From IMG/VR virus record IMGVR_UViG_3300006928_000020, positions 1 to 38,236 of that record: 38,236 bases of DNA. One strand, 5' to 3'. The DNA comes from a virus. Below, piece after piece: positions 6,758-35,530 of this stretch. The notes beneath the pieces are model-generated. The model searched no databases. It was not told where the DNA came from and saw only the letters and a list, made by a program, of their open reading frames with translations. Within the stretch, counting starts at the first letter, position 1; every line of letters starts with the position of its first letter. Made by a program: the position numbers and the translations under genes.

Positions 6758-6774
6758 TTGACTATATAAACTGG
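6758..6774 (+). promoter_or_regulatory. Conserved TATA-box promoter, copy 3
   Basis: TTGACTATATAAACTGG plus AATAGA; TATATAAA at 6763-6770. An ATG 26 bases after its first T (6789) opens only a four-codon ORF (MELW, stop). The real gene starts at 6810 behind GGTGAG (6799-6804), so this transcript has a leader of about 20 bases. Confidence 0.87.
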
Positions 6775-6809: not shown

Positions 6810-9365
6810 ATGAATAACAAGGCATATGATGACCTCAAGGGATTGACAGGAGCAGAACTCTTCGAATCTCTATGGGACGACATGAAGAATAACGTGAAGA
6901 TAGAGCGAGATAGTGGTGCGGCGAATAAGGAGACCGTGACTACTGACAGAACTAACTTAGTTCGCTCACAAAAAGCCAAGTCTCTGCTTCAGTACATCGC
7001 TTCTTACAAAGCGGGCACTGGCAAGTGGATAGTACCTCATACTGAGGTTCTCCTACTTGATGATGACTACACGATAGCGAAAGAGGCTTTCAAGAGAGTG
7101 ATGAGTAAGACCCAAACTAAAGTGGCATTTCTTCGTGCATGCCCTGAGCATGCTAGACATGGTGTGCTTGAGTCAGTGGAAGTTTCTAAAGATAACTTCG
7201 AAGAGCGATGGAATGCTCTGAATCAGAAGATGCTTAGCAACGACCCTAACGGTTGTCTCATACTTCAACCATTCATACATGCGTCATCGTCACTTGTACT
7301 TGGGCCACAACAATTCGCTGCTGTTGCGGCAGGTCATGATGGTATCACTGCTGGTGGTGATGCACTGCTCTACTTCATATTGAATCCACAGGACACACTG
7401 ATGTCAGACCACTTCTACTCAATCAATCCCAATAAGCATATCTTGGGTAAATATGAGGTAGAGATGGTCTACGAGAACACGTCTAAATTTAGGGTGAGCA
7501 AAAATCATGGTAACAATGCGTACCTCACTCAGATACGAGGTTCTCCTCCACATACACCTAGAGGGCCACCGTTCACTTACTACCTAGACCCTTCAACTAG
7601 AAGACCCATCGCTACTCAGTATGTTGATATTATCACACCGATGAACGAGAAGAAAACAATCGTCGATGATACATGGGCTAAGGACTACATCAAGCAGACA
7701 GCAGATGTGGATGGACTAATACCCAATGGAGGAGTTGAGGTCAAGCAAGTATGGGTGGCTTCAGGTTTGGAAGAGGTCGCTTGGCTTGAGGAGAAGATAA
7801 CCAAAGAGACGATGCCTGAAGGTTTTGTTATATCTCATCCAACAGGTTCGATGATGTCTCATATTTGTGCTCATGCAAGACAACATGACATACCCTACAT
7901 TGTTTCTGATGTGCAAGTGGGAGACTACTGGGTTGAAGGGTCGCCCTCATGGTTGGCGAAAGACCCCGATAAAGTCATAGTACCTATGCCATACGACCCA
8001 TGCACTGATGACTACGTTTCTAAGTTCAAGGCCGGATTGGACAACTCACTGGTGCAGTGGCAGAGGCAGCAAGGTTGGCTTGCACACTTCTTCCATCAGT
8101 GGGTTGGCATGAACTACAACGGTAGCAAGTCAGCGTACTTGGCTGGTGGTTTTGTTGGTTGGATGACCAAAGCAATACTAGCAGTGTGTCTCGGTGAGAT
8201 GAGGCATGCACCTTCCTACAAGAGAGACACGATGGTAGATGTCATGCCGGTACTGACTACCATGATGGGTACTAACAACTGGGAGGATATTACCACAGTC
8301 ACATACTTAGATGATGATGAGACAACCAAGACGAAGAAAGGTACACCCACCGCTCCATACGGCAGTGGCCCAAACAGGAAGCACTACTATGCCATGATTG
8401 AGAGGCTCAACGTAGGTTTCTTGGAGCAAAAGATGGCGCTTCAATGGTGCAAGAAACAATTTAGGACTGGTTGGAGCACGCAATACGGTGGTAAGAATTG
8501 GGCAGACTGTGCAGACTTAGGTATCAAAGTATGTGATGCAGTCATCCAGTTTCAGAAAAGCCCAAGCAAGGGTGCTCTTCAAGAGTTAATCGGTGCAGTT
8601 AATGCAGCCAAGAACGCAGAGCATAACAATGGTTTCCTATATGGTAAGTTCCTGAGTAAGAAAGCATTCGACTTCAGCAGTGCTCATAGTGATGAAGATG
8701 GTAACATCAATGGACTATTCAATCACTCAACTGAGTCTCTATCATATATGTTCAAGGCTTACGAGATTGCTGCTGACTTCATGTTTGGTGATGCAAATGA
8801 CAAATGCTTCGTACCTGAGATGGACTGGGTTACTCTATTCAATTTCCTCAGAGGTAAGGGTGCTCCTTACTGGAGGTCTACTTTCATAGCATCTCATACA
8901 GATGTACCTCTGTTACTTAGGGAGGCTGCGCTTGAATGTGGGCCTAAGATGATGCATCATGGTAATAAGTGGTCTCAAGAGAACGACTTCATTCCATGTG
9001 GTATAGAGACTTGTGATGAATGTAAAAAGTACGATGTCGTGGTAATGAAACTCAAGTATGGTGAGGATGTACATGGTCTGCTGCTAACACCTCAATACCC
9101 ATCAGTGTTCCTTGCCGGTAGTAATGAGAAGTCAACCACGATTACCTATGCAGTCGTTCAGTTGCTCAGAGAGCGTACTTATGAGTTAGTTACTCCTAAC
9201 ATGTGGGTGGATGCATGGAATGGATTGAATCACAAAGACCCAGTGTACCCATTACTGACCAAGTTCCTGACCAAGTTCGCCAAGAATCAACTTGTGGACA
9301 ATCAAGAATGGATGGATGAAGTAATGAAACTCACTAAAAATATTGAAATGAAGGTGGTAGAATGA
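6810..9365 (+). CDS. PEP-synthase-like phosphotransferase (851 aa)
   Basis: Best read as a distant relative of PEP synthase/pyruvate phosphate dikinase, enzymes that pass a phosphate from ATP to a mobile histidine and then to an acceptor. Residues 340-365 (PTGSMMSHICAHARQHDIP) match the swivelling-domain pattern G-x-TSH-x5-AR-x3-IP, making H351 the candidate phosphohistidine. Ahead of it, LRACPEHARHG (108-118) and ILQPFIHASSSLVLGP sit where the ATP-grasp domain has its conserved arginine segment and core strand. The C-terminal 450 residues are unfamiliar and do not look like the PEP-binding barrel; one segment has YGGKNWADCAD and a later HNNGFLYGKF. The acceptor is therefore unknown. It is translated from GGTGAG and overlaps the phosphatase-domain gene by ATGA, so the two probably act together. 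Confidence 0.5.
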   Translation: MNNKAYDDLKGLTGAELFESLWDDMKNNVKIERDSGAANKETVTTDRTNLVRSQKAKSLLQYIASYKAGTGKWIVPHTEVLLLDDDYTIAKEAFKRVMSKTQTKVAFLRACPEHARHGVLESVEVSKDNFEERWNALNQKMLSNDPNGCLILQPFIHASSSLVLGPQQFAAVAAGHDGITAGGDALLYFILNPQDTLMSDHFYSINPNKHILGKYEVEMVYENTSKFRVSKNHGNNAYLTQIRGSPPHTPRGPPFTYYLDPSTRRPIATQYVDIITPMNEKKTIVDDTWAKDYIKQTADVDGLIPNGGVEVKQVWVASGLEEVAWLEEKITKETMPEGFVISHPTGSMMSHICAHARQHDIPYIVSDVQVGDYWVEGSPSWLAKDPDKVIVPMPYDPCTDDYVSKFKAGLDNSLVQWQRQQGWLAHFFHQWVGMNYNGSKSAYLAGGFVGWMTKAILAVCLGEMRHAPSYKRDTMVDVMPVLTTMMGTNNWEDITTVTYLDDDETTKTKKGTPTAPYGSGPNRKHYYAMIERLNVGFLEQKMALQWCKKQFRTGWSTQYGGKNWADCADLGIKVCDAVIQFQKSPSKGALQELIGAVNAAKNAEHNNGFLYGKFLSKKAFDFSSAHSDEDGNINGLFNHSTESLSYMFKAYEIAADFMFGDANDKCFVPEMDWVTLFNFLRGKGAPYWRSTFIASHTDVPLLLREAALECGPKMMHHGNKWSQENDFIPCGIETCDECKKYDVVVMKLKYGEDVHGLLLTPQYPSVFLAGSNEKSTTITYAVVQLLRERTYELVTPNMWVDAWNGLNHKDPVYPLLTKFLTKFAKNQLVDNQEWMDEVMKLTKNIEMKVVE

Positions 9366-10645
9366 ATAAGAACGGATGTCATTCAGGTAATCCAGTAGTG
9401 TTCGAGGCACAGGGTATCAAGGTGCATGCTGGTGGTAGTAATCGCCAAGGCGGTTGGCATGTGATGTCACCAATGCCTGACGTGGCTCTTGGGCCACTGG
9501 GCGTGATTCGTTCTATGAAGACTAGAGATATCATGCCGCAGGGTTGGAGTTGCTCAGACAAGGTTAGCGTAGGGCAAGCGCCCATCATCATCGAGATAGA
9601 TTGGCCTGACTACAATGTACCAAGCAACTTGGGTAGAGAATGGTGGCTTGCGTTTGTACAAGATGTCAAAAGCAAGGGAGTCAAATCAATTTCTACTCAG
9701 TGCATGGGTGGTCATGGTAGAACAGGAGTTCAGTTATGCATACTGGCATACTTGCTTGAAGCAACCAAAGTATCAGATGCTTATTTTCTTATAAAATGGG
9801 TACGAGAAAGGTTCTGCGAGCATGCTGTCGAGGCTAAATGCCAACAAGATTACATCGCCGATATATGTCAGATACCAATAGGTAAGTCTGCTATTGCAGT
9901 GAAGAGTCACAACCCATGGGCTGGTCAGAACTTCACCGATGACCTCATGTTTACTGAAGCGGAACTCAATGCTCAAAGAAAGTTTGAGCAGAAGAGCGAA
10001 GCAAAGAAAAAGCGTACATCTAAGAATAAGAAGAATAAGTACAAGTCTCCAATCAGAAAGGGATGGACTCTCACCTATTCTGAGGACGCATTGGACTGGG
10101 AATGGAGACGCACTAGGGCTGAAGACATGGAAGCACCATGTAGATTCAGCGGTGGCAAGGTTGTTCAGGCAGACAAGTCTCTCATGGATGGACGTGACTT
10201 AGTACCTTGCTTAGGCAGTGGTAGACAGTGGCATCCAATCGAGATGGCTACCGATGCAGAGTCCAACGTATTCCTAGCAGAAGAGATGGGTATGAAAACT
10301 AAGAAGGAAGAAGATGGTGGTACTAGCATACTGTTAGGTAGAACTTGGGTTCCCAGTTGGTTTGCGAAATACCATAAGGGTACATTCATGTCTTGGCTCA
10401 AGTACTACGATGAAGTACTGCACCAGCGCAGTGCATCAAGTAGGAAAGCAAGCAAGACAAAGAAGGGTAAGATACCTTCCTTCAAGAAACAGAATCAAAG
10501 AACATTGTCTGACTTCACCGATGGTGATGACTACATGTTAGATGATGAATATCAGGACTGGGCGCTTGACCCTGATACGAAATGGGCAGACGAAGCGCCT
10601 AAAAGAAAGACAAACGATGAGATAGAATCGGAGGAATTAAGATGA
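9362..10645 (+). CDS. Protein with cysteine-based tyrosine/dual-specificity phosphatase domain
   Basis: The N-terminal domain carries both hallmarks of PTP-fold phosphatases: the P-loop CMGGHGRTG, with nucleophile C114 and R120 (CX5R followed by T), and a WPD loop, WPDYNVPS, with general acid D83. It should hydrolyse phosphoesters on tyrosine, serine/threonine, RNA 5' ends or a small molecule; the sequence does not say which. Residues 205-235 are lysine-rich (KKKRTSKNKKNKYKSP). The remaining 190 residues are unrecognised, end in an acidic tail and include a second basic patch. It is coupled by ATGA to the PEP-synthase-like gene before it and to the small gene after it. The 427-residue length is much larger than a minimal phosphatase of about 150 residues. 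Confidence 0.72.
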   Translation: MNKNGCHSGNPVVFEAQGIKVHAGGSNRQGGWHVMSPMPDVALGPLGVIRSMKTRDIMPQGWSCSDKVSVGQAPIIIEIDWPDYNVPSNLGREWWLAFVQDVKSKGVKSISTQCMGGHGRTGVQLCILAYLLEATKVSDAYFLIKWVRERFCEHAVEAKCQQDYIADICQIPIGKSAIAVKSHNPWAGQNFTDDLMFTEAELNAQRKFEQKSEAKKKRTSKNKKNKYKSPIRKGWTLTYSEDALDWEWRRTRAEDMEAPCRFSGGKVVQADKSLMDGRDLVPCLGSGRQWHPIEMATDAESNVFLAEEMGMKTKKEEDGGTSILLGRTWVPSWFAKYHKGTFMSWLKYYDEVLHQRSASSRKASKTKKGKIPSFKKQNQRTLSDFTDGDDYMLDDEYQDWALDPDTKWADEAPKRKTNDEIESEELR

Positions 10646-11049
10646 AAGAAAATGAAAGAATGCAAGTAAAATGTAACTATGATGACGAGACGATGCACAT
10701 ACAGTGTGTATCAAAGACTGTGCAGCGAGGTAGAGAGTATGGTATGGCTATCAAACTTCCAACTACTGCTGATGTGAGTATGTGGTTGAGAGAGCAAGAG
10801 GCTACTTTGGTATCTGCTGCTTCAGGAGGTACACCTATGTATACTCCATTCTCACTATACAAGTATAGCAGTGGGGAAGTACAGATGTTCATACCCGGGA
10901 CTGAGATAAATCACACTCAAGGCGCTGTCATGAACCTTCATCCTCTGTGCAATAAAGTCAAGAAACTACTTTCTTTTGCAGATGCAGCAGGGTTCCTAGA
11001 AGATGCTGAGGGTCTACCATATACAACAGGAGAGAAATCAGATGAGTAA
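10642..11049 (+). CDS. Hypothetical protein (135 aa)
   Basis: Not recognised. The first half is beta-rich (RMQVKCNYDDETMHIQCVSK), followed by a segment with a helix (DVSMWLREQEATLVSAASGG) and a second sheet region (SGEVQMFIPGTEINH). There is no clear cofactor or metal site. It is coupled to the phosphatase gene by ATGA and overlaps the next gene by eight bases. Confidence 0.65.
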   Translation: MKENERMQVKCNYDDETMHIQCVSKTVQRGREYGMAIKLPTTADVSMWLREQEATLVSAASGGTPMYTPFSLYKYSSGEVQMFIPGTEINHTQGAVMNLHPLCNKVKKLLSFADAAGFLEDAEGLPYTTGEKSDE

Positions 11050-11287
11050 AGATGCGCATGCAGTAAGAGTCCATACTCAAAGTGGCGAGGCCATCATAGA
11101 CATCGCAGAGATAGTGGCTGTTGTAAGACTTGACCCGCATACTTTCATTAAGGATAAAGAGTACTTCGATGTTGATATACACATGAGAAACGGTACTATA
11201 TTTATGGCTGAGAATAAGACAGATGAGTTCTTTGATGTTTTACGTGGGTTCATGTGTCCTGACGAAAGCACATATCTAGTGGAGTGA
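11042..11287 (+). CDS. Hypothetical small beta protein (81 aa)
   Basis: Not recognised. The ATG at 11042 is preferred over an in-frame start 39 bases upstream because it follows GGAGAG at normal spacing and leaves only an eight-base overlap. The product alternates strands (HAVRVHTQSGEAIIDIAEIVAVVRL, YFDVDIHMRNGTIFMAE) and ends in a helix (TDEFFDVLRGFMC), which suggests a small beta-sheet domain. Confidence 0.65.
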   Translation: MSKDAHAVRVHTQSGEAIIDIAEIVAVVRLDPHTFIKDKEYFDVDIHMRNGTIFMAENKTDEFFDVLRGFMCPDESTYLVE

Positions 11288-11292
11288 GTTAC

Positions 11293-11862
11293 ATGAAAGA
11301 TATACTCATGCAAATAACTAGGGAGTTACAAAGAATAGGGCATGTGATTGGTCAACAGTTTCAGTTACCTCCTAAGACTGCCCACGTTTTAGAAACTCTC
11401 AGAGCATCAAGAGTGAATGTAAATAATATAGCACGTAACTCTCAGCAGAATCATTTGGGTTGGCATGCCTATGGTCACATGCATATCTATGACAATTTAG
11501 AAATCGTCCATCCCATACTCATACAAGAACTGGCTGAGATTCACAACGTCCCAGTAGGTATGGTATCTGCATTGACGATTAGGATAAGGGATGAGCCAGC
11601 GCTCATGAAAGGATACGTCACGAATATCTCTCCATTGGTTCTGAATAAGATGAACTATCCTTTAGAACTACCCGCATTTAATATGGATGAGATAGCATAC
11701 AGCACACCTATGCTAGTGAGAGCAGCATGGGCTGGAGCGGAAGAAGGTTGGTGGGATGCAGAAGACCTACTTTCATTACCTCCTATGTATGGTGTTAGTA
11801 CAGAGGATGCAGTTGCAATGCTGGCGGATGCAAATACAGAACCATCGGTAACTCTCGCTTAA
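11293..11862 (+). CDS. Hypothetical protein (189 aa)
   Basis: Not recognised. The ATG at 11293 lies five bases after GGAGTGA (11281-11287), which itself contains the previous stop; a GTG nine bases upstream is less likely. The protein is helical with a histidine-rich middle (GWHAYGHMHIYDNLEIVHP, about residues 57-75) that could bind metal, and a tryptophan-rich segment (RAAWAGAEEGWWDAEDLL). It closes the unit that began with the PEP-synthase-like gene; the next promoter follows after seven bases. Confidence 0.65.
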   Translation: MKDILMQITRELQRIGHVIGQQFQLPPKTAHVLETLRASRVNVNNIARNSQQNHLGWHAYGHMHIYDNLEIVHPILIQELAEIHNVPVGMVSALTIRIRDEPALMKGYVTNISPLVLNKMNYPLELPAFNMDEIAYSTPMLVRAAWAGAEEGWWDAEDLLSLPPMYGVSTEDAVAMLADANTEPSVTLA

Positions 11863-11869
11863 TAAAACC

Positions 11870-11886
11870 TTGACTATATAAACTGG
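11870..11886 (+). promoter_or_regulatory. Conserved TATA-box promoter, copy 4
   Basis: TTGACTATATAAACTGG inside a 45-base block (11859-11903) that recurs exactly at 16306-16350. TATATAAA is at 11875-11882; the ATG at 11909 is 34 bases after its first T, predicting a leader of about six bases. Confidence 0.87.
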
Positions 11887-12499: not shown

Positions 12500-14242
12500 A
12501 TGGGTGGTAGACAATACAGACAAGGACAAGGCAACTGGGATATGTTTGTCGAAGCGGGAATAGTAGAGAACGATGTCTTCTTCACTGATGACCCGATAGT
12601 GACAGCACATGCGATTGGTAAAACAAAAGATACCATTAGATATTGTTGGCCTATTGATGCAGCAGTTGCATTCACACTTGCATCTGCTGGCCCAAATGCT
12701 AACCTCACTTCTAAGGATATGGTAAACCAGTATACTAGAATGGCCGTAGCCATGATGTCAGGAAGAGTAGGATATGGTGACGTCACAGACCCACGAATAG
12801 AAATATGCGGCCATGACATGGTAGATGGTTATAATATAGAGATGAGCGACATCTACCTATCAAAGGATGGTCACCTATGTATAACTGATAGTGAAAAGAA
12901 TAATGGTCTCAAGTCTAAGATGTCACCTGCTATGAAAGAACTCATGACCTTTAGGGTCAGTAAGACTTGGGCTAGAGCAAATCTATTTATGCGAGGCAAT
13001 AGAAAGGCAGCAGCCTTCGCTTTGCTCATGTCAGACCGTCTGAGACCCATCAAGGAGTTTGCAGAGAAGACATTCAAGACAACCACTTGGGACTTCAACA
13101 ACTCAACAGATACTTTTAGTTCACAGGATACAAAAGGCGAGTGTCTTTGGAAAGACGACCCTGAGAAACACTGCGGTCATCATAGCCCACAACAATTCCA
13201 TGGATGGGCCATGATTCGTCAACTCGATAATAGTGGAAATGTAGTTGAGTTCGGTGCGAAGGATGCAAATGGAAAGCCCGTGCCCGCTTTCAGGAAAATA
13301 TGGAATAGAGGTAATGGTGTCAGAGCAGTGTATAGTAGTTGGAATCATAACATGATAGGTCAAGCAGGTTTGTCTGATGTATCTCCTGAGCGTGTGGTAC
13401 TATGGGATAGAGTGAGCAGAGGGTTGGGTAACACCATACCTGAAAGAGATGTAATCAAACAAATCAATGCTGCTTGTAGGAGAATGACTGCTAGGAACTT
13501 CAACGTCATTCAGAAGGCAGGTCTTCGTAACAGTGCTACGTATTGTTGGAAGGAATGGGGTTGGCTACATCACCTTGAGGCATGGATTGCTCAGACCAGT
13601 AAGAAGAACAGGAAGGAGCACGACCTAGTGAACGGATGGAAGTGGACTAAGTATCAAAGCAGAATGTCGTATGGATATGAGATTGCCAAGTTCAAGTGGA
13701 TACCCGGGAAAGAGAACGATGAATACGATTCCGCCACAGACAAGGCAGTGGAATGGGTAGATGGTAAAGCAATAACCAGTTACACTACACCACCTGCTAT
13801 TAAAGATGAGATGATTGTTTACAAAATCAAAGTTAGTACAAGTTACTACAACACTAAGGAGATGCCTTGGTATTGGAAGACTCGAGATGAAGCACAATCC
13901 TTTATAGATTTTAACACCATGCTAGCAGGTCGAACAGGTGCAATAAACAGGAAGAGAAGAACATGGGATGGCTCTACTGGACAGGAACTACTGCATGTAT
14001 TTGATGGTTTTGTAATTGATGAAGATGAAATGAGTAATCGTATTGAAATGGACATGGATGTAGACCCTGAAGAAATAATGACTGCGAGAGAGGTTTACGA
14101 GTCTTTGATGTGGGGTAACCCTCAAGAGTTCGACGAGGCATACAAGTTACTGTCAGACTCCTCTCGTTCATACTGGCATAGACCACGTGTAGAGAATGTT
14201 ATCGAAGAAGAAGAAGGAGGACAGGAAGTTGTCACAGCGTGA
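12500..14242 (+). CDS. Large hypothetical protein (580 aa)
   Basis: Not recognised despite its size. GAGGTG (12488-12493) lies six bases before the ATG. The N-terminal third has an alanine-rich helical region (IDAAVAFTLASAGPNANL) and a repeated 'D..IE..' pattern (DPRIEICGHDMVDGYNIEMSD). The middle has a Cys/His cluster (GECLWKDDPEKHCGHHSPQQFHGW, split around residues 213-236) that may bind metal. The C-terminal third is basic, then acidic. There is no transmembrane segment, P-loop or nuclease motif I can identify. It is probably an enzyme or scaffold of the same accessory module as the genes at 6810-11862. Confidence 0.7.
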   Translation: MGGRQYRQGQGNWDMFVEAGIVENDVFFTDDPIVTAHAIGKTKDTIRYCWPIDAAVAFTLASAGPNANLTSKDMVNQYTRMAVAMMSGRVGYGDVTDPRIEICGHDMVDGYNIEMSDIYLSKDGHLCITDSEKNNGLKSKMSPAMKELMTFRVSKTWARANLFMRGNRKAAAFALLMSDRLRPIKEFAEKTFKTTTWDFNNSTDTFSSQDTKGECLWKDDPEKHCGHHSPQQFHGWAMIRQLDNSGNVVEFGAKDANGKPVPAFRKIWNRGNGVRAVYSSWNHNMIGQAGLSDVSPERVVLWDRVSRGLGNTIPERDVIKQINAACRRMTARNFNVIQKAGLRNSATYCWKEWGWLHHLEAWIAQTSKKNRKEHDLVNGWKWTKYQSRMSYGYEIAKFKWIPGKENDEYDSATDKAVEWVDGKAITSYTTPPAIKDEMIVYKIKVSTSYYNTKEMPWYWKTRDEAQSFIDFNTMLAGRTGAINRKRRTWDGSTGQELLHVFDGFVIDEDEMSNRIEMDMDVDPEEIMTAREVYESLMWGNPQEFDEAYKLLSDSSRSYWHRPRVENVIEEEEGGQEVVTA

Positions 14243-33765: not shown

Positions 33766-33977
33766 AAGAAAGAACGAAAGATGAAGAAATATGGGAATTG
33801 AGGCGAGCCTTTGATATCCTACATAGAATGATTACGGGAGGAAACAATTTGTACGACATAAGTAGAAACGTATCGCTGCTAGCACAGCGAGTGAGATACC
33901 CGTTTGTACAAGAGGCTCTGCCTGATGATGCAATAGATTCAGACGCAGAAGCAAGAACGGTTGGTGAGGAAGAATGA
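33759..33977 (+). CDS. Hypothetical protein (72 aa)
   Basis: Not recognised. A helical protein (DEEIWELRRAFDILHRMITG, DISRNVSLLAQRVRYPF) with an acidic tail. It overlaps the exonuclease gene by seven bases and the chaperonin gene by ATGA. Confidence 0.6.
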   Translation: MVEERTKDEEIWELRRAFDILHRMITGGNNLYDISRNVSLLAQRVRYPFVQEALPDDAIDSDAEARTVGEEE

Positions 33978-35530
33978 GCGATACAAAGACAGAGACTACA
34001 TTGAGAAGTAACATAGAGGCGGCACGAATTATCATCGATACGGTGAAGACCACGCTTGGCCCAATGGGTCGAGACAAGTTGTTAGTCGATGCTGGGGGTA
34101 ACACAATCGTCACGAATGATGGTGCGACTATCCTACGAGAGTTAGACGTCAGTCATCCAGCAGCGAAGATGATTATCGAGTGCGCAAAGACACAAGAAGC
34201 AGAGTGTTACGACGGTACTACATCTTCTGTGATACTGGCTGGCTCTCTATTGAAGAATAGCGAGGCTCTGATGAACAAAGGTTTGCATCCTAATTTGGTA
34301 TCAAAGGGATACCATGAGGCTGCAAGACTGTGCATGAGGAGACTTGGCGAGTTGTCCGGCTTAGTAGAAGAGGACGGCGGCACAATGAGACAAGCAATCA
34401 TCACTGCAATTACAGGCAAGACGCTAGAGGCAGACGTAGACCATGTGGTAAAACTGGTTATGGGCGCTGTTGATAGCGAAGATAAGCCTAGAGTAGTGTG
34501 TTTACCCGGAGGCAGTCTATCTGATTCAGAGTTATTGAATGGAGTTGTAGTCAACAAGACTTATGCTCAACCTATGCCTAAATTCGATATACCTGATAAC
34601 TGGGAAATTCCATTAACATCAGGAATCATCTTATTGAATCAACCCAGTGATGAGATGAAGTCTGATGATAATGTGCAAGTACAACTGGATATGAAAGGGT
34701 ACTCTCAGATGAAAGCGACAGCGAAAGAGGACACACTAGCATCTGCCAAGTTAATTGCCTCCGCATTTCAAGTTCCAGCAGAAACGCTGGCTGGTGTATA
34801 CGAGATAGGTGTAGTGTTTGTGAGAGAGCAGGTTGAGGATGGTGTAGTATCATACCTGAAGAAACATAACATAGCAGTCGTCAAGAGAGTTCCTGAAAGT
34901 ATTATGCAAGCAATGTCAAAAGCAACAGGCGCTCCAATATATCATTCACCATCAGACGATATCGATAGAAGCGAGGCTGTTGTAGAAGAGAGAGAAATAG
35001 ACGAAGTGAAATACCTATTCGTTGGTGGGCTAGATGATTCACCAGTGAAGACGTTGGTAGTGAGGGGTTCTACGAGAACCACATTAGATGAGACTGAGAG
35101 AGGTTTTGACGATGCTCTCGGTGTAGCATCCATCATACACAATGGCGGAGATGTGGTGTGGGGCGGAGGCACGACCTATTGCGCACTTGCCATGCATCTC
35201 AGAAATGAGGCTGCAAGTGTCAGCGGTAGAAAGCAGATGGCTATTGAGGCGTTTGCAGATGCACTGGAAAGCATACCATCCACACTAGCAGAGAACAGCG
35301 GACATGACCCATTGGACTGCATACTGGCTATGAGAAAGGCTCTGTACGATGACCCCAATATGGAGCGACAGGCTCTAGGGCCTGATGTGGAAGAGGGCGG
35401 ACTCACTGACATGAAAGAACTAGGAGTGCTAGAACCGGCCAAACTGGTCAGGCAATCCATCATGAGTGCCACTGAGGTTACCACAGCCATGCTGAAGATT
35501 GATGACATGGTGGCGAAGAGGGGCGAATAG
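33974..35530 (+). CDS. Group II chaperonin (thermosome) subunit
   Basis: A viral thermosome/CCT-type chaperonin that folds proteins in a double ring. The ATP-site motifs are TLGPMGRDKLLVD (residues 27-39), TNDGATIL (47-54) and DGTTSSVILAG (80-90); the last normally reads GDGTTT, and here the glycine is Tyr79. Further motifs are RGFDDALGVA with the catalytic-type aspartate, GGGTTYCALA (normally GGGAxE) and ENSGHDPLD. At 518 residues it is slightly shorter than cellular subunits (about 540), mainly at the N-terminus. It may form its own ring for virion proteins or mix with host subunits. It lies at the end of the plus-strand block, next to the structural genes. Confidence 0.96.
   Translation: MSDTKTETTLRSNIEAARIIIDTVKTTLGPMGRDKLLVDAGGNTIVTNDGATILRELDVSHPAAKMIIECAKTQEAECYDGTTSSVILAGSLLKNSEALMNKGLHPNLVSKGYHEAARLCMRRLGELSGLVEEDGGTMRQAIITAITGKTLEADVDHVVKLVMGAVDSEDKPRVVCLPGGSLSDSELLNGVVVNKTYAQPMPKFDIPDNWEIPLTSGIILLNQPSDEMKSDDNVQVQLDMKGYSQMKATAKEDTLASAKLIASAFQVPAETLAGVYEIGVVFVREQVEDGVVSYLKKHNIAVVKRVPESIMQAMSKATGAPIYHSPSDDIDRSEAVVEEREIDEVKYLFVGGLDDSPVKTLVVRGSTRTTLDETERGFDDALGVASIIHNGGDVVWGGGTTYCALAMHLRNEAASVSGRKQMAIEAFADALESIPSTLAENSGHDPLDCILAMRKALYDDPNMERQALGPDVEEGGLTDMKELGVLEPAKLVRQSIMSATEVTTAMLKIDDMVAKRGE

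Follow-up and report, generated by a model that had tools for sequence, protein, structure and literature searches.

A predicted phosphotransfer module with its own phosphatase, common to tailed viruses of bacteria and archaea

Known enzymes that combine an ATP-grasp with a phosphohistidine domain act mainly on small molecules. Rifampin phosphotransferase (RPH) has the domain order ATP, rifampin-binding, His. In phage papers, a gene of this kind has been described as a host-captured glycolytic 'pyruvate phosphate dikinase' (PPDK): for ORF98 of vB_VneS_J26, the PPDK annotation came with docking and a model of a partial barrel (PMC12038007), and other Vibrio phage papers make similar statements. 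Our comparison assigns the gene instead to a virus-borne module with a predicted function in phosphotransfer, one part of which has thus been misread as an enzyme of sugar metabolism. The module joins a putative acceptor domain without a recognised fold to one or two dedicated phosphatases, and is common to many unrelated tailed viruses of bacteria and archaea.

The window analysed here is a stretch of 38,236 nucleotides from an archaeal tailed virus (IMG/VR record IMGVR_UViG_3300006928_000020), and all features described below lie on its plus strand. An earlier note, made from the letters of the window alone, had proposed that a PEP-synthase-like enzyme and a protein with a phosphatase domain are encoded by adjoining genes. 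Both open reading frames proved to be real, as did their ATGA overlap: the first (6810–9365) encodes the 851-amino-acid dikinase-like protein P0001, a fusion of an ATP-grasp region, a phosphohistidine swivelling domain, a helical domain that we term h340 and a C-terminal extension, and the second (9362–10645) encodes the 427-amino-acid PTP domain protein P0002. A TATA-box-like element, TTGACTATATAAACTGG (6758–6774), lies 36 bases ahead of the dikinase-like gene and is the probable promoter of the unit; it has 9 exact copies in the window against a chance expectation of 0.01. Three relatives (L075, L077 and L079) have this element too, as TTGACTATATAAAC, immediately ahead of their homologous gene.

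The ATP-grasp region of P0001 spans residues about 36–301 (6915–7712) and is assigned from Foldseek, VIA-align and residue conservation. By sequence, this half has no visible similarity to the phage dikinases (hhalign, E = 0.39), so the comparison of folds decided the assignment. Among ATP-grasp proteins, Foldseek gave the N-terminal half a probability of 1.0, and its closest structural matches in VIA-align include PPDK (1dik; Z = 12.2, 188 residues, rmsd 3.3), PEP synthase (2ols; Z = 11.4, 190 residues, rmsd 3.1, with a match that spans 38–424) and rifampin phosphotransferase (Z = 10.9), using a predicted structure of middling confidence (pLDDT 62.6, and below 50 in the loop around H351). K55, R109, H117, E216, E218, Q241 and R243 are invariant or nearly so in the family and resemble the ATP-site set of PPDK, an equivalence inferred rather than computed. 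The swivelling domain follows at residues about 310–400 (7737–8009). It was recognised by hhalign against the phage dikinases (E = 3.5 × 10−4; best of 20 shuffles, 0.012) and by PF00391, the only Pfam family matched by most members, weakly and in 7 of 12 (best E = 0.0068). The motif with the candidate phosphohistidine singled out earlier, PTGSMMSH351ICAHARQHDIPYIV, is borne out by its conservation; all 12 relatives compared that are full-length or long have S350 and H351, the predicted phosphorylated histidine (codon 7860–7862).

The C-terminal part of P0001 is not the usual PEP/pyruvate barrel, as the earlier note had stated (PF02896 is absent from P0001 and 11 relatives), but the note did not recognise there the third part of the module. 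On the evidence of profile comparisons, this half of P0001 is a relative of h340, a phage protein of about 340 amino acids (PHROG 20946) and an all-helical domain that was previously unrecognised. The homologous region covers residues 447–646 (8148–8747) and was identified with hhalign against the separate phage h340 proteins (E = 2.8 × 10−8, and 6 × 10−7 in another comparison) and with hmmsearch, in which a seed profile built without fused proteins gave E = 3 × 10−5 for the relatives L071 and L072 and 0.008 for the window. The h340 pattern E-x-R-[HY], GGxxW, [DN]-x6-HNxGxxxxK is present in P0001 as E463-x-R465-H466, G560 G561 xx W564, N598 and H605 N606 xG608 ... K613; the residue after the conserved E-x-R is mostly His and sometimes Tyr (65 H, 8 Y). 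The predicted structure of h340 is confident (pLDDT 90.7), and its comparison with the PDB yielded no recognised fold (best Foldseek E = 1.1, best VIA-align Z = 3.9), which is not in itself proof of a new one.

The PTP signature claimed for P0002 is intact (IDWPD83 and C114MGGHGR120TG). Its catalytic domain occupies 9581–9889, with the C114 codon at 9701–9703. Across 15 aligned viral relatives, C114, R120 and Q161 are invariant and D83 is at least 90% conserved. P0002 matches PF00102 (E = 6 × 10−4) and phrog_17568 (E = 2.8 × 10−13), a family labelled thymidylate synthase that is in fact a PTP, and the viral alignment, judged by sequence profile, matches PTPs of the PDB (E = 2.5 × 10−16), lying close to archaeal and shuffled members. 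The C-terminal extension of P0002 is conserved only among its close relatives. A tree of the PTPs, from which the window's own copy and the L001 copy identical to it were left out, resolves two paralogues that each group by position relative to h340, and the close relatives of the window form one clade. Long branches lead to the rows of this clade and of the Woesearchaeota locus L092, which leaves the deep joins uncertain.

Downstream, the unit continues with a gene for a 135-amino-acid protein (10642–11049), again with an ATGA overlap, which directly follows the PTP gene in 9 of the 9 fused-type loci compared (45–69% identity). We considered it as a counterpart of the gene of about 284 amino acids that follows the second phage PTP, and rejected this, as the two are not similar (E = 0.41, which shuffles reach as well). 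The gene for a 192-amino-acid protein (11284–11862), the last ahead of the next promoter copy at 11870, is kept in 7 of 9 fused-type relatives compared. The earlier note had suggested that unknown genes behind the pair may be its targets. A 580-amino-acid protein is encoded in the next unit (12500–14242) and matched no family in searches that included PHROG, Pfam-type and NCBIfam profiles. Its homologue lies directly upstream of the dikinase-like gene in L080–L082 and L074, with a 4-base overlap in L081 and L082, and the 580-amino-acid protein is thus a candidate further component of the module.

Scanned as single sequences against IMG/VR, neither P0001 nor P0002 found anything, and tblastn of P0001 in the phage collection was equally negative; the family was reached only with profiles built through the PTP neighbours. 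The IMG/VR relatives recovered in this way are 36–62% identical to P0001 over its full length, and in each the gene is immediately followed by a PTP gene. The dikinase-like and PTP genes therefore do occur together in other genomes. The earlier note had placed this pair in tailed archaeal viruses, where it is present, but that scope was too narrow, since tailed bacteriophages have the genes too, in unfused form. In phages of Vibrio, Rhizobium, Stenotrophomonas and Rhodobacter and in about 45 IMG/VR contigs, the parts are separate genes in the fixed order dikinase, PTP1, h340, PTP2. A fusion of the dikinase with h340 behind it, in the order ATP-grasp, swivel, h340, is seen in 12 archaeal-virus contigs, the podovirus L005 and contig L057; h340 there occupies the place expected of the acceptor domain. 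All 39 full-length records of the phage collection with h340 by tblastn also have a dikinase-like gene, and a PTP lies within about 1.5 kb of 83 of 91 h340 genes. Two loci retain only a stand-alone swivelling domain with h340 and a PTP; in jumbo-type contigs (L012, L068–L070 and L093), h340 occurs with neither dikinase nor PTP nearby. Transcription factor B, sought in relatives of the window as an archaeal marker, was not found. A literature search for the combination returned annotation lists only and no description of the module. A 2026 survey of BREX does not treat the module.

On balance we lean towards reading the locus as a virus-encoded module that passes phosphate from ATP through a phosphohistidine to an acceptor and includes a cognate phosphatase. 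The fold, motif and conserved residues suggest that, as PPDK and PEP synthase do, P0001 would use its ATP-grasp domain to load H351 in the swivelling domain with a phosphoryl group taken from ATP. The swivelling domain would then turn to h340, which replaces the PEP/pyruvate domain and, to judge from its position in several fusions and the strict gene linkage, may hold the acceptor or itself be the acceptor. The PTP from the overlapping gene, with its intact active site, could hydrolyse the resulting phosphoester, either resetting or finishing the modification. We infer that dikinase and PTP, as first proposed, are a phosphorylation and dephosphorylation pair acting on the same molecule. Among candidate acceptors, we put viral DNA or a precursor nucleotide ahead of a host or viral protein.

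DNA or nucleotides are a candidate because two phages that bear the module have restriction-resistant DNA: that of DLP3 resists 15 of 15 enzymes tested (PMC7326821) and that of DLP5 resists 32 of 36 (PMC5834331). On this reading, phosphorylation by the module would turn a modified base or nucleotide into an activated intermediate, h340 would perform or present the exchange, and the PTP would remove leftover phosphates. Consistent with this, the module adjoins DNA polymerase in phages, lies in a replication-rich region of the window and neighbours dUTPase or dCTP deaminase genes in L004 and L010. The resistance comes from one phage genus only, however, and is confounded because the annotated glycosyltransferase, epimerase and aminotransferase-like sugar genes of DLP3 could explain it; the literature on Rhodobacter phage RcZahn and on Vibrio phages yielded no restriction data. 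We regard modification of DNA as possible but doubtful. Its fullest form, a virus-specific system in which an ATP-driven phosphohistidine relay, h340 as a helical acceptor enzyme of new fold and dedicated PTPs make a novel modification, phosphorylated or phosphate-activated, of viral DNA or its precursors that protects the genomes of bacterial and archaeal tailed viruses, is speculative, and we would sooner expect it to fail in some part than to hold entire.

Alternatively, the module may act on a protein of the host or virus (RNA polymerase, for example, or one used in defence) by adding and removing phosphate, and h340 may be its adaptor or its target. The PTP-superfamily active site and its nearness to archaeal and shuffled PTPs, the grouping of the two paralogues around h340, and the His or Tyr after E-x-R are compatible with such regulation, which we nonetheless consider unlikely given the small-molecule substrates of most known ATP-grasp/phosphohistidine enzymes and the lack of any PADLOC match for P0001, P0002 or the dikinases. 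The only PADLOC match of h340 was to AbiEii (E = 0.047), and a reading of the module as an anti-phage defence system was rejected for want of PADLOC matches.

Terminase, DNA polymerase I and portal genes surround the module in most bacteriophage loci, so this synteny may be partly common descent, and the linkage could in principle mean nothing beyond descent in one phage lineage and a chance fusion in the archaeal clade. We disfavour this as improbable: the replisome of the fused-type viruses is of another kind (family B polymerase and archaeal-type clamp loader, with a group II chaperonin), and L005, L057, L058-type loci and L092 carry h340 and PTP in other contexts. Least probable of all, and rejected, is an auxiliary metabolic gene that interconverts PEP and pyruvate to boost host carbon metabolism, with the phosphatase in separate signalling. 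The published Vibrio phage annotations favour it, and TIGR01828 strongly matches the N-terminal part of the phage dikinase. That match, however, ends at position 525 of 865 (470 bits, below the cut-off of 843), and PF02896 is found in 0 of 9 phage dikinases, so that the usual acceptor domain is undetected. A helical domain fills the barrel position in P0001 and L057, and this reading gives no account of why h340 and two PTPs are linked to the gene.

The target of the module is directly testable in cultured carriers, which include Stenotrophomonas phages DLP3 and DLP5, SIO-2-like Vibrio phages, Rhodobacter phage RcZahn and Rhizobium phage RHph_TM16. A DNA target would point towards a novel kind of DNA modification chemistry; a protein target would constitute a viral phospho-switch.

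Compared with PPDK and PEP synthase (PF01326, PF00391 and PF02896; TIGR01828), P0001 shares the ATP-grasp N-terminal half, for which they are the best structural matches, and a swivelling domain with a motif of the S-H-x(4)-R-x(3)-IP type, but it has h340 in place of the PEP/pyruvate barrel and an adjoining PTP gene. RPH (NF041857) is likewise alike in its ATP-grasp and phosphohistidine domains and passes phosphate to an acceptor other than PEP; in P0001, however, the ATP-grasp domain is followed by the His domain and then h340, and a rifampin-binding domain was not recognised. With the PTP and dual-specificity phosphatases (PF00102 and PF00782; ShufPTP, 5z59-type and SsoPTP), the viral enzymes share the WPD-loop Asp, the CX5R loop and a conserved Gln, Q161, at the position of the Q-loop; they differ in having a further conserved segment, VRxxYCxxAVExxxQ, beyond the catalytic loop and, in archaeal viruses, a C-terminal extension of about 250 amino acids. 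Bacteriophages encode the three parts separately, as PHROG 18609 (labelled 'kinase', PPDK-like), PHROG 20946 and PHROG 17568, whereas the window fuses the first two into one protein, with an ATP-grasp part of a shorter, diverged type.

The earlier note had paired a PEP-synthase-like gene with a tyrosine phosphatase (PTP) gene, and both reading frames lie where it placed them: P0001, an 851-residue dikinase-like protein (6810–9365, plus strand), and P0002, a 427-residue PTP-domain protein (9362–10645, plus strand), are joined by an ATGA overlap of their genes. P0001 itself matched no family in Pfam, PHROG, PADLOC or NCBIfam; profile scans of IMG/VR recovered full-length relatives at 13 loci. 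An AlphaFold2 model built from a 12-row alignment reached a pLDDT of only 62.6, with residues 20–160 good. Foldseek comparison of this model with the PDB filled the top ranks with ATP-grasp proteins (probability near 1), and among the best VIA-align matches were PPDK (1dik, Z = 12.2), PEP synthase (2ols, Z = 11.4) and rifampin phosphotransferase (Z = 10.9); interspersed or just below were synapsin (Z = 11.5) and further ATP-grasp enzymes. Both searches bear out the ATP-grasp fold expected for this protein. The conserved early K55, R109, E216/E218 and Q241/R243 have the look of counterparts to the ATP site of C. symbiosum PPDK (K22, R92, D321/E323 and Q335/R337, in the same order). Sequence support for the swivelling domain is weaker, but consistent: the predicted phosphorylated histidine, H351, is invariant among relatives, the domain matches phage dikinases with the histidines aligned (hhalign, E = 3.5e-4; best of 20 column shuffles, 0.012), and PF00391 is the sole Pfam family touched by most family members (7 of 12).

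The neighbourhoods of PTP genes gave the key lead to the C-terminal half. P0002 matched PTP genes in Rhizobium, Stenotrophomonas, Vibrio and Rhodobacter phages (tblastn), and adjoining these are genes annotated as pyruvate phosphate dikinase and a gene for an uncharacterised protein of ~340 residues (h340; PHROG 20946), the motifs of which are present in the C-terminal half of P0001. The two aligned with E = 6e-7 (hhalign; 3e-5 with P0001 alone, 2.8e-8 with five fused proteins). A profile built exclusively from separate h340 proteins found fused relatives at E = 3e-5 and P0001 at E = 0.008; the lower E-values of later iterated searches are not independent, because fused proteins were in the training set. 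The modelled h340 of comparison locus L033 is almost all-helical (a confident model, pLDDT 90.7, pTM 0.85) and had no recognisable match in the PDB (top hits: E = 1.1 in Foldseek, Z = 3.9 in VIA-align); its only good matches in BFVD were five viral proteins that appear to belong to the same family. Its invariant residues (E107, R109, G172, G173, W176, D198, H205, N206 and K213, L033 numbering) suggest a catalytic centre more than a structural scaffold, and H110 and N212 are conserved at 90% or more.

The phage gene has been named an auxiliary PPDK (PMC12038007, PMC10272388, PMC10141217). PPDK_N and the mobile domain occur in 9 of 9 tested phage dikinases and PF02896 in 0 of 9; TIGR01828 is matched no further than position 525 of 865, and the score of 470 bits falls short of the 843-bit cut-off; the barrel position in P0001 and in the fusion at L057 is occupied by h340. 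On these grounds we regard a metabolic PPDK as very unlikely.

The full PTP signature that had been read in P0002 is upheld: a profile of 15 viral PTPs matched solved PTPs (E = 2.5e-16), and the PTPs found beside h340 carry the CX5R loop. The best PHROG of P0002, 17568, is labelled thymidylate synthase, an annotation error, since its members are PTPs by sequence. The same label recurs in Stenotrophomonas phage records (for example, L003, 9409–10185).

HMM searches of all fetched loci recovered the order dikinase–PTP1–h340–PTP2 in nearly all bacteriophage-type loci, and PTP1 and PTP2 sequences form separate groups according to position. In a partly redundant set, a PTP lies within ~1.5 kb of 83 of the 91 h340 genes with sufficient flank; those without one are large multi-domain proteins of jumbo-type contigs (L012, L068–L070 and L093) and a contig-edge copy (L053). 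The very large jumbo-type proteins (L012, 7338–12283) have neither dikinase nor PTP nearby, and those of L012 and L093 carry h340 twice in tandem. In the phage collection, tblastn found h340 in 41 records, and a dikinase accompanies it in 39 of 39 once a 5.8-kb fragment and a jumbo record are set aside. A CsrA-like protein of ~100 residues stands between dikinase and PTP1 in 32 of 45 bacteriophage loci (L006, 6524–6832, PF02599 E = 4e-4; L002, 5390–5671; L003, 7180–7521). Five records named as Listeria or Enterococcus phages (OR848379, OR846950, OR848408, OR846859 and OR846604) have dikinase matches of 42–45% identity and no h340; they may represent host DNA wrongly deposited under phage names.

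Much of this synteny is embedded in a terminase–polymerase I–portal neighbourhood that is itself conserved, and is therefore partly inherited; independent evidence for the module is provided by loci outside that context. There, h340 is fused behind the swivelling domain in archaeal viruses with family B polymerase, in podovirus L005 and in L057 (782 residues, canonical PPDK_N and swivelling domain, h340 at the C terminus); L056 and L067 retain a stand-alone swivelling domain with h340 and PTP, and L058-type loci retain h340 and PTP, as does a Woesearchaeota MAG (L092). In L092 (7014–9556), h340 (563 residues) overlaps the PTP gene on a 20.7-kb contig, possibly a DPANN virus or provirus. Near the pair in L056 is a 714-residue fusion of a uracil-DNA-glycosylase-superfamily domain and a family A DNA polymerase (7933–10077). 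A scan of 84,980 species genomes turned up only eight loci, most with the whole phage-type module, so the module appears to be largely virus-borne.

The window, one linear IMG/VR virus record of 38,236 bases, appears to be a fragment of an archaeal tailed virus: it encodes a family B DNA polymerase, an AAA clamp-loader-like ATPase, an ERCC4-type nuclease and a group II (thermosome-type) chaperonin (33974–35527; best PDB relatives archaeal thermosomes, 1a6d, E = 1.6e-86). The same chaperonin family occurs in 12 of 12 searched records holding a fused P0001 relative, and a recognisable terminase in 6 of the 12. Nine exact copies of a TATA-like 17-base element, TTGACTATATAAACTGG, stand ahead of genes or gene groups on the plus strand (1433, 4184, 6758, 11870, 15547, 16317, 20844, 27498 and 31508; 0.01 expected); it is a predicted uniform viral promoter element that would divide the window into transcription units. 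Genes 6810–11862 lie between the copies at 6758 and 11870, which suggests a single unit of P0001, P0002 and three small proteins, and a similar element lies upstream of the P0001-homologous gene in L075, L077 and L079. A 580-residue protein (12500–14242), in which Cys/His and Trp residues are conserved, has a counterpart in every fused-type virus compared; its gene in L081 and L082 sits immediately ahead of the dikinase-like gene and overlaps it.

Domains, conserved catalytic residues, linkage and fusion order are observed features of the module; in the mechanism that we infer for it, ATP would phosphorylate P0001 at H351, the phosphoryl group would be handed to h340 and the PTP would then dephosphorylate. 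The one experimental clue to the acceptor comes from the cultured Stenotrophomonas phages DLP3 and DLP5, both of which carry the module: the DNA of DLP3 withstood 15 of 15 restriction enzymes (PMC7326821), and just 4 of 36 enzymes cleaved that of DLP5 (PMC5834331). Because DLP3 additionally encodes a glycosyltransferase and sugar genes, and the publications examined on other module-bearing phages yielded no restriction-digest data, we propose DNA or nucleotides as the acceptor only tentatively, with proteins slightly less likely. A literature search, with most subscription journals outside its reach, found no description of the acceptor domain, the PTP coupling or the distribution. The proposed chemistry is already known in kind, as ATP-grasp/phosphohistidine transfer to variable acceptors of the sort exemplified by rifampin phosphotransferase.
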